This document shows, one piece after another, positions 26,845 to 30,229 of a stretch of 34,955 bases of DNA. The notes beneath the pieces were generated by a model. That model saw only the letters and a list, made by a program, of their open reading frames with translations. It was not told the origin of the DNA and searched no databases. This stretch comes from Herpetosiphonaceae bacterium (GTDB lineage Bacteria; Chloroflexota; Chloroflexia; Chloroflexales; Kallotenuaceae). A program made the position numbers and the translations under genes. The first letter of the stretch is position 1; each line of letters opens with the position of its first letter. The stretch is taken from NCBI GenBank assembly GCA_013821605.1, contig JACDGP010000052.1:1-34955 (forward strand). Reading direction: 5' to 3'.

Positions 26845-26989
26845 TCGGAGCACTCTCACTCCCCAGAACTTTAGTTATCAATGCTTGGATCAGTAATGGT
26901 AGATCATGTTTGGGATGTGCTTGGACAACGGCAAAAGCCGTGTCCAGACGCTGCTGAACCTCGTGGGTTAAGGTCATCATCGCCCTCAC
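26795..26989 (-). CDS. Small helical protein coupled to the phosphotransferase gene
   Basis: A 64-aa frame whose GTG overlaps the TGA of the phosphotransferase gene (GTGA). ATG 26977 is an alternative start. It reads MTLTHEVQQRLDTAFAVVQ and is predicted almost all helical. No family recognised. Coupling makes it the third gene of the ribosomal-protection operon. Confidence 0.45.
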   Translation of the reverse strand: MRAMMTLTHEVQQRLDTAFAVVQAHPKHDLPLLIQALITKVLGSESAPIKVGLALEHLDPVQQS

Positions 26990-27897
26990 GCATCATCCGC
27001 ATTGTCAGCAAGGACTTCGTCAATGACACGGCGCGCCTCGGCTGCCTTCACAGGATTAATGGTGCGTTCTTGATCAAGGATCAGCAGCGCCTTCCACAAC
27101 GCCCAGCCACGCCCCCGCATCCACGTCGGTCCATCGACCGGAAGCGCCGCGCGGAACGCCGTCCGACTCTCCCCTTCAAACAAAGTCCATGCAATTACCA
27201 TGTCACAGGCCGGATCTCCCACGCCCGCGCATCCGAAGTCGATGACGGCGCTCAACGTACTATCCTTGACGAGCAGGTTCCCCACGGCAACATCGCCATG
27301 GAACCAGACAGCAGGACCATGCCACGGTGCGGCAAGCGCGCGCTCCCACAGGGCGGTCGCGGCTTGTGCGTCGATGGCATCTTCCAGCGCAATGATGGTA
27401 TGCCGGGTTTCGACGTCATAGGTGCTGAGCGGGCCGCCCCGAAACGCACTATGCAAGCCAGGCGGTGGACCACCCCGGGCGTCGATGCGCTGCAAGGTGG
27501 CGAGGAACTCCGCCAGCGCGGCCGCGAACGCAGTCAGATCATCGATCTGCTCGACGCTTGCCGCCTCCCCATCGAGCCAGCGGTAGATCGACCAATTCCA
27601 CGGGAAGCCTTCGGCCGGTGTCCCCAACGCCAGCGGCACCGGGATCGGCAGTGGCAGATGCGGCGCCAGGAACGGCAGCCAGCGCTGTTCTTTCGCGATC
27701 TGCGGCGTGTATCCCGCAGCGCTTGGCAAGCGCACGCTCATCTCCATGCCCAGCCGAAAGGTTCGGTTGTCCCACCCCTGTGGCTCGGCCGCTCTGATCG
27801 GCCGATCGGCCCACTGCGGGAACTGCGCGGCCAGCAGCCGGCGCACGAGCGCGACGTTGATGTCACTCTGATTGAACTGGGTGTCGCTAACGGTCAT
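26986..27897 (-). CDS. Aminoglycoside phosphotransferase-like kinase (APH family)
   Basis: A 303-aa protein with the protein-kinase-like fold. QGWDNRTFRL (residues 40-49) matches the nucleotide loop of this branch. WFHGDVAVGNLLV holds the catalytic HxDxxxxN box (His200, Asp202, Asn207), and AVIDFGCAGVGDPACD supplies the metal-binding Asp220. The family phosphorylates aminoglycosides, macrolides, choline, homoserine or metabolites, so the substrate cannot be read from sequence. It lies 20 nt after the ribosomal protection gene and probably shares its transcript, which makes an antibiotic substrate more plausible. No terminator seen downstream. Confidence 0.82.
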   Translation of the reverse strand: MTVSDTQFNQSDINVALVRRLLAAQFPQWADRPIRAAEPQGWDNRTFRLGMEMSVRLPSAAGYTPQIAKEQRWLPFLAPHLPLPIPVPLALGTPAEGFPWNWSIYRWLDGEAASVEQIDDLTAFAAALAEFLATLQRIDARGGPPPGLHSAFRGGPLSTYDVETRHTIIALEDAIDAQAATALWERALAAPWHGPAVWFHGDVAVGNLLVKDSTLSAVIDFGCAGVGDPACDMVIAWTLFEGESRTAFRAALPVDGPTWMRGRGWALWKALLILDQERTINPVKAAEARRVIDEVLADNADDA

Positions 27898-27917: not shown

Positions 27918-29888
27918 CTAGACCCGCCGCAGAACATGCAGCAGATATTCTTTCCGATTGAGTGGGTTACGGTCTGTCCGTGGTCGCATCGGGACCGTCC
28001 CGTGGATCGGTTCGTAGTGATCAAAGGCAGCTTCCAATACGCCCTCACCGCTCGTCAACCCGGGCACGCGCTGCTGCAACTCGTGCACCCGTGCGGCTTG
28101 AATATCACCCTCCAGCAGATACGACGAGCCCCGCATCTCCTGTGTTTGTGGCATTGCCTGTAGTCGAGCCAGCACCGCCACCGTCGCTCCCAGCGCATTG
28201 GTCGGAATCTCGAGATGATAATGGTGCATCGGCTCGCATACGCTGGCGCCCGCCTGCTGCAGTGCTTCCATCAAAACCAGCGGCGTCAGAAGCCGGAAGT
28301 CCCGCGCACTGCTCGATGGCGACACATAGCCGGATTGCGTCAAGGTAACCCGGCAGTCGGTGACTTGCCAACCGTATAGACCTTGCCGCAGCGTGTCCTG
28401 CACCGTCTCCTCCATCGTCTTCCGGAACTCCTCAACCGACTTGTACACAAACAGTGGCATCGAGTCGACTTTGGCGTCCAGCCGGAAATCTATGCCACTA
28501 TTGAGCGGAGCCGGATCGATCCGTAGTCCGACCGTAGCCAGGAATGGGTTAGCTGCCTTCCCGAGCATCTCGACATCTGAGCCGCTACCGATCACCCGTT
28601 CGATACAGATCATTGTCGTTTCGCGGAACTGGACATCAATATGGAAGTCGGTCAGGAGCGTTTCCTGGATCACTTCCTTCTGTACCTCACCATACAGCGA
28701 CAGGAACAGCTCTTGCCGGATGTCGTCCTGCCGTAGATTGATCAACGGATCCTGCTCGGCGAGCTGCACGAGCGCGACGTGCAGCCTGCCCCGGTCGGCT
28801 GGATTAGTTGGCACGATGACCGTTTCCAGCGTCGGCGGAGCAAAAAACCGTCGTTCCCCCGTCGTTCGCACCGTGCCGATCTCGTCGCCGATCTGGATTT
28901 CCGTGAGGCCCCACAGCTTGGCAATCTGTCCGGCGCCAGCCGACCCACGTCGTACCGCAGCACCGCGCTCGAAAACGCTGATCGCGGTCACCCTGCCTTC
29001 ATGATCCCGGCCCCAGTGCAGTCGATCCCGCACGCCCACCGTTCCCGCAAACAAACGCACATACGCGATCTTCTCCCTACTTGCACCGCGCTCGATCTTG
29101 AAAACCGTGCCCGAAACCTCGGCATCCGCATCGCCCTTTGCCGGGGGCAGCAGCTCTTTAATCCCGGCGATCAGCGCATCGACGCCGGCACCCGTCATCG
29201 CCGAGCCTAAGAACACCGGATGCACCCGCGCCTGCTTGGTCTGCACCACCAGTTCGTCGCGGAGTTGGCAATACGAAACGCTCGCCTCGTCGCTGACATA
29301 GGCCGCCAGCAACGCCTCGTCCTGCCCGGCAAGCAACTCGACCAGTCTGGCCATAAATGCGGCATCGCCGACCCCATATGGGCTGTAACCGGCGCTGCGG
29401 CTGCCCTGCTCATGTGCCGAGCCCATCAACATAATGGCAGGCTGGAGCTTTTCGGCGATACTCTGGAAGACGCGCTCATAATTGGCACCCCCACGGTCGA
29501 TCTTGTTGATGAATAGGAGCGTCGGAATATGCAGCCGCTGCAGTGCCCGCATCAACACTCGCGTTTGCGGTTGCACCCCCTCTACGGCCGAAATCACCAG
29601 GACCGCCCCATCCAGCACGTTCAATACCCGCTCCACCTCAGCGATGAAGTCCGGGTGACCGGGCGTATCGATCAGGTTGACCGTGACGTCATCGATCACA
29701 AAGGATGCGACGGCGGACTTGATCGTAATGCCGCGTTGCCGTTCCAGAGCCAGCGAGTCGGTCAGGGTATTACCGGCATCGACACTGCCCAGCTTGTCGA
29801 TAACGCCGGTCATAAAAAGCAGCCGCTCGGTCAAGCTTGTTTTTCCGGCATCTACATGCGCCAGGATGCCGAGGTTTAAAGAGGTCAT
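27918..29888 (-). CDS. TetM/OtrA-like ribosomal protection GTPase
   Basis: A 656-aa EF-G-like translational GTPase of the tetracycline ribosomal protection type. G1 is AHVDAGKT (residues 10-17), switch I LERQRGITIKSA, G3 DTPGH with catalytic His78, and G4 NKID (128-131). The opening and GSVDAGNTLTDSLALERQRG are closer to TetM than to EF-G. Domain IV holds YVSPSSSARDFRLLTP, the counterpart of the TetM loop that enters the decoding site; the conserved Ser-Pro remains, but the following Val is Ser. Length is slightly above TetM (639 aa). GGAGGG lies 12 nt upstream. It sits behind a leader peptide and attenuator. Whether it protects against tetracycline or another ribosome drug is untested. Confidence 0.88.
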   Translation of the reverse strand: MTSLNLGILAHVDAGKTSLTERLLFMTGVIDKLGSVDAGNTLTDSLALERQRGITIKSAVASFVIDDVTVNLIDTPGHPDFIAEVERVLNVLDGAVLVISAVEGVQPQTRVLMRALQRLHIPTLLFINKIDRGGANYERVFQSIAEKLQPAIMLMGSAHEQGSRSAGYSPYGVGDAAFMARLVELLAGQDEALLAAYVSDEASVSYCQLRDELVVQTKQARVHPVFLGSAMTGAGVDALIAGIKELLPPAKGDADAEVSGTVFKIERGASREKIAYVRLFAGTVGVRDRLHWGRDHEGRVTAISVFERGAAVRRGSAGAGQIAKLWGLTEIQIGDEIGTVRTTGERRFFAPPTLETVIVPTNPADRGRLHVALVQLAEQDPLINLRQDDIRQELFLSLYGEVQKEVIQETLLTDFHIDVQFRETTMICIERVIGSGSDVEMLGKAANPFLATVGLRIDPAPLNSGIDFRLDAKVDSMPLFVYKSVEEFRKTMEETVQDTLRQGLYGWQVTDCRVTLTQSGYVSPSSSARDFRLLTPLVLMEALQQAGASVCEPMHHYHLEIPTNALGATVAVLARLQAMPQTQEMRGSSYLLEGDIQAARVHELQQRVPGLTSGEGVLEAAFDHYEPIHGTVPMRPRTDRNPLNRKEYLLHVLRRV

Positions 29889-29948
29889 ATAATGCTGTCA
29901 CCCTCCCACAATTGCCACATCTCCACCATCTTCTCGCGCCGGGCACGC

Positions 29949-29983
29949 AAAACGGCCACGGGACCGATCTGCCCATGGCCGTT
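29949..29983 (-). promoter_or_regulatory. Second leader hairpin (3:4) before the ribosomal protection gene
   Basis: AACGGCCATGGG and CCCGTGGCCGTT pair over 12 bp with one G-U and a 9-nt loop; TT follows, then GC, so its own T-run is poor. Its 5' arm can instead pair fully, with two G-U pairs, with the 3' arm of the terminator upstream, which would form an anti-terminator. Confidence 0.7.
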
Positions 29984-30021
29984 AAAAAACACGACCACGG
30001 GCTGAAATGCACCCGTGGTCG
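29984..30021 (-). terminator. Intrinsic terminator (attenuator) in the leader of the ribosomal protection gene
   Basis: A perfect 10-bp stem, CGACCACGGG with CCCGTGGTCG, a 10-nt loop, then TGTTTTTT. It lies after the leader peptide and before the gene, so in the default state most transcripts should stop here. This is the strongest intrinsic terminator in the window. Confidence 0.85.
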
Positions 30022-30106
30022 CGTCGATTGTCTATATATGCTACGAGAGGAACATCAACCGTGTTCGTCGCCGCACGTGATAGGTTTGCCGGTCACCAAG
30101 CGCACT

Positions 30107-30163
30107 TCAGTAGGCGCCCACCCTAAGAGTGAGTCGCCCAACATTGTAAGCTGGTGCTGCCAT
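30107..30163 (-). CDS. Leader peptide of 18 aa (MAAPAYNVGRLTLRVGAY)
   Basis: The ORF is preceded by AAGGAG 10 nt from the ATG and a second AGGAG 3 nt from it. The predicted transcription start is about 30 nt upstream. It ends about 85 nt before the terminator stem. The peptide has no run of one amino acid, which argues against amino-acid control. It fits a ribosome-stalling or translation-sensing leader like those before tet(M), erm and similar resistance genes. The product itself is probably not functional. Confidence 0.65.
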   Translation of the reverse strand: MAAPAYNVGRLTLRVGAY

Positions 30164-30200
30164 GCGCTCCTATCTCCTTAAAGATATACGTTATGCCGCG

Positions 30201-30229
30201 AGTATACCATGCGCAGATCCCGCGATCAA
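30201..30229 (-). promoter_or_regulatory. Promoter of the ribosomal protection operon
   Basis: On the minus strand TTGATC (30224-30229), 17 bp, TATACT (30201-30206). It lies 32 bp after the birA stop. The leader is about 300 nt. Confidence 0.75.

Follow-up and report, generated by a model that had tools for sequence, protein, structure and literature searches.

A probable ribosome-sensing transcription attenuator ahead of a tetracycline ribosomal-protection-like gene and other genes in Chloroflexales

Results

The tet gene and its leader

The window, meaning the whole 34,955-nt stretch of DNA that was analysed, carries on its minus strand a gene (27918..29888) for a tetracycline ribosomal-protection-like GTPase of 656 amino acids, assigned by profile match and structural relatives. 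The nearest models to its product are Otr(A) and tet_protect. The product falls below the curated cut-offs of both, with 712 bits against a cut-off of 775 (NF012153) and 719 against 900 (Otr(A)), and the NCBIfam cut-off is not reached. Among solved structures (PDB), TetO and TetM are by far its nearest relatives. We named the protein "RPP-like" because it misses the curated cut-offs, yet has TetO and TetM as its best PDB relatives. A gene for an APH-family phosphotransferase (26986-27897, minus strand) lies 20 nt 3' of the tet gene and probably shares its operon. A 14-codon ORF, MVEMWQLWEGDSII (29885-29929, minus strand), ends in a TGA that overlaps the tet ATG (ATGA), a pattern as in translational coupling.

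All elements of the leader lie on the minus strand. A sequence scan located a sigma-70 type promoter, TTGATC-17-TATACT with a TG extension before the -10 (30201..30229), as the only promoter-like site within 4.5 kb, a length in which chance would give 1.2. The birA-like upstream neighbour ends about 30 nt 5' of it. By-eye reading of upstream sequences placed a TG-extended -10 about 45-50 nt 5' of the leader ATG in most other leaders. The ribosome-binding region (30167..30179) contains AAGGAG (30179-30174) and a closer AGGAG (30171-30167), and SD-like sequence is also found in other leaders. It precedes a leader ORF of 18 codons, MAAPAYNVGRLTLRVGAY* (30107..30163), recognised from the sequence and from comparison of leaders. 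A hairpin, P1/P2 (30094..30156), identified by changes on both sides of its pairs and by folding, lies within and just beyond this ORF. Inside its 3' strand is a segment that we call S (GAAGTGCGCTTGGTGACC, 30091..30108), which was found by leader comparison and is the proposed antiterminator strand, pairing with arm 1 and the loop of the first terminator, T1. The preliminary description of this DNA had overlooked the conserved segment S (30108-30091). The other parts that it had named, namely the promoter, the 18-codon ORF with AAGGAG, a six-T terminator and another hairpin, were all found at the place given.

T1 with its six T spans 30025-29984. Sequence, pairing conservation and folding define arm 1 (GCGACCACGGG, 30012..30022); pairing conservation and folding define arm 2 (CCCGTGGTCGT, 29991..30001); and the six-T run (29984..29989) is seen in sequence and folding. 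T2 with its four T spans 29982-29949. Its arm 3 (ACGGCCATGGG, 29972..29982), identified by pairing conservation and folding, can pair with arm 4 or with arm 2, and arm 4 with its T-run (CCCGTGGCCGTTTT, 29949..29962) was assigned from sequence and folding. T1 alone folds at -29.0 kcal/mol (z -6.5) and T2 at -22.6 kcal/mol (z -4.9), each stronger than all 200 shuffles. The strong terminator had been described as a perfect 10-bp stem; RNAfold gives a longer one, of 15 pairs. The alternative pairing of arm 2 with arm 3 (2:3), which had been claimed to place the T-run in the loop, does so in our fold and reaches -19.6 kcal/mol (z -5.5), again better than all 200 shuffles. Arm 1 also pairs with arm 4 at 9 of 10 positions, as claimed.

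The leader family and its genes

A pattern-based survey, surely incomplete, gave 14 leaders in 11 of the 82 genomes of the order Chloroflexales: that of the window, two more in its own genome and 11 in ten others. The family therefore has at least 14 members. They precede five tet RPP genes, six genes of one ABC-exporter family, one heterodimeric ABC exporter, one nucleotidyltransferase and one methyltransferase operon. These targets are of resistance type. All five tet genes inside the order (G000, G034, G035, G026 and G059) have a homologous leader with the peptide M(A/T)xxxYN(F/L/V)xxLT. The tet gene is absent from all five other genomes of the window genome's own family, and a search of genome contigs gave no close relatives of the protein. 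Orthologues at 62-72% identity are present in the class and phylum.

A leader pattern matched the same leader in G056 (Chloroflexi bacterium AL-N1), where it precedes an ABC exporter rather than a tet gene. A covariance model run over the order recovered seven real leaders, those above and the one that the window's own genome has before its heterodimeric ABC exporter, and separated real leaders from chance matches by a wide gap (3e-19 vs 2e-3). The weaker matches that were inspected fall in other sequence, chiefly a single conserved coding region.

The T1 hairpin, GGCCACRGG..CCYGTGG, is rare, and several of its few additional copies in six genomes are further leaders; its rarity and these copies rule it out as a genome-wide repeat. 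Among the hairpins that occur singly in other genomes, several are plain terminators or coding sequence. Six other leaders came from the T1 hairpin pattern and two leaders, with HN in the peptide in place of YN, from a pattern containing S. In the six genomes the hairpin search gave, beyond the known and heterodimer leaders, two leaders with unrelated peptides. One, with the peptide MLRFATNVHQRVRLVNH (G000_nt; L095, G000:C82), comes from the same genome as the window and precedes the gene of a 583-aa protein that carries two nucleotidyltransferase domains. A search of the order's 81 remaining genomes gave no orthologue of this protein, and we regard it as a candidate resistance enzyme. The other, with the peptide MAKVFSTTGVAASAAPSSSVRLVRS (G035_mt), precedes a methyltransferase and RIO-kinase operon in G035. 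Over the whole order the same search gave three HN-type leaders, whose S region led to two more. These five HN leaders all precede ABC exporters orthologous (58-76%) to that of G056; one of seven close orthologues of this exporter (G059) has no leader.

Conservation of the leader ORF and the terminators

Codons 6-7 encode (Y/H)N in 12 of the 14 leaders. Changes by codon position in the YN leaders (59/29/73) are only weakly coding-like. The HN leaders are 26 and 28 codons long, and the frame is therefore kept, since these lengths differ by whole codons. In the hairpin within the ORF, four pairs have changed on both sides (7 leaders). No run of codons for a single amino acid occurs in any of the 14 leaders. 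Compared with the other YN leaders, that of the window has two single-base deletions (30107-30130, minus strand), by which its C-terminal peptide differs while the stop position is kept. The loss of the C-terminal peptide of its relatives makes peptide-specific arrest doubtful. The residues VRLV, in or after the leader, were considered as an arrest peptide. This idea was dropped because the HN leaders retain the same bases in another frame; a search with a VRLV-leader pattern had a leader already known as its sole recognised match.

The preliminary description had proposed that the leader and its arms be compared with homologous leaders, and in this comparison both proved to be conserved. Over the 14 leaders, 99.2% of T1 cells are paired, with three pairs changed on both sides, and only 2 of 500 shuffles are as high. 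The pairing of arm 2 with arm 3 holds in 121 of 126 cells. It is better within than between loci, with p ~0.02 by label permutation, a rough value that ignores relatedness of the sequences.

Segment S and its proposed pairing with arm 1

In the window the leader stop codon is 85 nt upstream of arm 1, so arm 1 is beyond the direct reach of the leader ribosome. The full 1:2/2:3/3:4 attenuator of the preliminary description is thus insufficient alone, although its switchable 2:3 pairing stands. S is a candidate for the link between the leader ribosome and arm 1, as judged from the sequences.

In the 14 aligned leaders S is the one common segment near the leader stop (AGTGCGCCT.. with small changes). 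In 13 of them its position is between -4 and +18 nt relative to the stop, the exception being G000_abc, where it is 39 nt before the stop. S is mostly 3' of the stop in YN leaders, the HN leaders read GAG TGC GCC TTT TAA, and the two odd leaders (G000_nt and G035_mt) read it as GTG CGC CTS GTG. Its retention across differing frames points to a role as RNA.

S forms the 3' strand of the leader-ORF hairpin, and it is complementary as well to arm 1 together with the T1 loop. Of the S:arm 1 cells, 89.7% are paired when the register is the aligned one, against 20-69% in slid registers. Three pairs have changed on both sides, which 6 of 500 shuffles reach, and five of the nine pairs are in the T1 loop, where T1 itself imposes no constraint. 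Because the paired-cell percentage is not above that of shuffles among loci (187 of 500), we consider the support for S:arm 1 moderate. Permuting the arms between loci lowers the number of pairs (p ~0.01) and the duplex energy (p ~0.008), both values rough because relatedness is ignored. S is the best leader partner of arm 1 in only three of the nine loci that were ranked.

We modelled a ribosome footprint of ~30 nt at every leader codon, with the RNA ending before arm 2, by equilibrium partition functions. With the footprint at the stop, S:arm 1 is lost in 14 of 14 leaders, in 13 by construction as a consequence of the position of S. With the footprint at some earlier codon, at least eight S:arm 1 pairs form in 12 of 14. 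The calculation does not support the switch in G000_abc and supports it weakly in G063. In G000_nt the ground state is S:arm 1 even when all of T1 has been made, except where a ribosome has advanced to cover S. An unoccupied leader sequesters S in some YN leaders; in the window S is not sequestered.

Discussion

The sequence comparison shows that the leader ORF, the hairpin within it, S by the leader stop, T1, T2 and the S:1 and 2:3 complementarities are kept. Features expected of an attenuator are present, that is, a short ORF with a ribosome-binding site, an intrinsic terminator before the gene and a conserved exclusive antiterminator pairing (2:3, and S:arm 1 with moderate support). We therefore propose, with a probability of roughly 0.7, that the leader attenuates transcription by sensing the ribosome, as would at least 13 others in the order, and that it would do so through S:1 and 2:3. 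In the OFF state, a ribosome reading the leader to its stop would mask S, 1:2 and 3:4 would form, and transcription would end. In the ON state, a translation inhibitor would hold the ribosome early in the leader, on the 5' strand of P1, so that S, left free, could capture arm 1 with the T1 loop ahead of the synthesis of arm 2. Arm 2 would then join arm 3, neither terminator would form, and polymerase would read through into the resistance gene. At loci with three or four hairpins a similar shift along the chain may be possible. Equilibrium strongly favours OFF (T1 -29.0 and T2 -22.6 vs -19.6 for 2:3 and about -18 to -20 for S:arm 1, in kcal/mol), so the ON state must be kinetic and rest on the order of strand synthesis. 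A response to translation-inhibiting drugs is predicted, as is the range of inducers.

In a simpler leader-peptide attenuator, the ribosome would act through the in-ORF hairpin and by trailing RNA polymerase; S would owe its conservation solely to being the 3' strand of P1 and to its place around the stop, and 2:3 would have arisen as a side effect when hairpins were duplicated. In favour of this, pairing of S with the leader ORF is seen, the hairpins of one locus are alike, as duplicates would be, and the paired percentage of S:arm 1 is no better than in shuffles. However, the pairing of S reaches into the T1 loop in a single register with changes on both sides. S is also kept in G000_nt and G035_mt, where no P1-like stem was seen and where S:arm 1 is the strongest of all. 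We consider the simpler scheme unlikely.

That the hairpins are tandem intrinsic terminators only, which shield the gene from transcription coming from upstream or hold its basal expression down beside an incidental short ORF, would fit their strength and T-runs and the end of the birA-like gene just before the promoter. This is improbable, since a promoter and a conserved ORF stand between that gene and the terminators, and 12 leaders have in common both (Y/H)N at codons 6-7 and the in-ORF hairpin, with the frame kept in the HN leaders. Least probable is a riboswitch that binds a drug or metabolite in place of sensing the ribosome. A structured leader ahead of resistance genes might suggest one, but its structured portion coincides in part with a conserved ORF that has a Shine-Dalgarno sequence, and leaders that differ in sequence have only S and the hairpins in common. 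An Rfam search of the leader matched no family at the gathering score; two low-scoring matches, both microRNA models far under their gathering scores, were judged to be chance.

Beyond the ribosome-sensing attenuator as such, it is conceivable, at somewhat less than even odds, that these leaders form a lineage-wide, movable switch for translation stress. Masking of S at the stop would sense arrest nearly independently of the peptide, the signal would pass along a chain of hairpins that shift register, and placement before unrelated resistance genes would create a regulon lacking a protein regulator.

In logic, BmrB of bmrCD in Bacillus subtilis comes closest among described systems: there a small ORF and alternative stem-loops precede a multidrug ABC exporter, and transcription attenuation is governed both by translation of the ORF and by ribosome-targeting drugs (PMC4191407). 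Both systems combine an ORF with alternative hairpins before an ABC exporter. BmrB has 53 amino acids and its terminator is within the coding sequence, whereas the Chloroflexales leaders have terminators outside the ORF with S as the proposed link. Unlike BmrB, the Chloroflexales leader is common to several unrelated genes. The attenuators of mef/mel, vmlR and lmo0919 also provide drug-responsive transcription attenuation of resistance genes; they are from Firmicutes and were described one gene at a time. We know of no S-like segment or interchangeable hairpin chain in them. In the amino-acid leaders of trp and his the position of the ribosome chooses between terminator and antiterminator, as proposed here, but stretches of a single repeated amino-acid codon are absent from the Chloroflexales leaders. 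That attenuators move between genes has been remarked on in general terms (PMC2965389). Our literature search found no paper linking Chloroflexi with a leader peptide and transcription attenuation. We infer that the family is mechanistically a variant of ribosome-mediated transcription attenuation. If so, Chloroflexota would have a family of ribosome-sensing attenuators in which one RNA switch coordinates several kinds of resistance gene. S and the rare hairpins would then offer a search handle for inducible resistance genes that await characterisation, for example the double nucleotidyltransferase of the window's own genome.

The preliminary description had drawn a parallel with tet(M) of Tn916, where a transcription attenuator lies ahead of a ribosomal-protection gene according to Su et al. 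1992 as cited in PMC5418344. The parallel may hold by analogy, as an attenuator before a gene of this kind. It does not extend to the target, which is Otr(A)-like in the window, and the Chloroflexales leader is not target-specific, being found before other genes as well. Furthermore, tet orthologues outside the order lack a homologous leader and have another leader or none. In nine of them (L009, L011-L015, L034, L036 and L038) a short ORF, MRRAFMSxQ-like and mostly with AAGGAGA in front, is located ~55-67 nt 5' of the tet start, overlaps this start and ends ~38-47 nt inside tet in a different frame. This overlapping ORF is possibly a separate, translational type of control. A contig titled Candidatus Gracilibacteria (L079, JAAUTF010000624.1) bears a Chloroflexales leader and tet gene, and the record title is probably wrong. 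In G034 (L010), the last 70 nt 5' of the tet start contain, in addition to the attenuator leader, an overlapping out-of-frame ORF with AAAAGGAGG.
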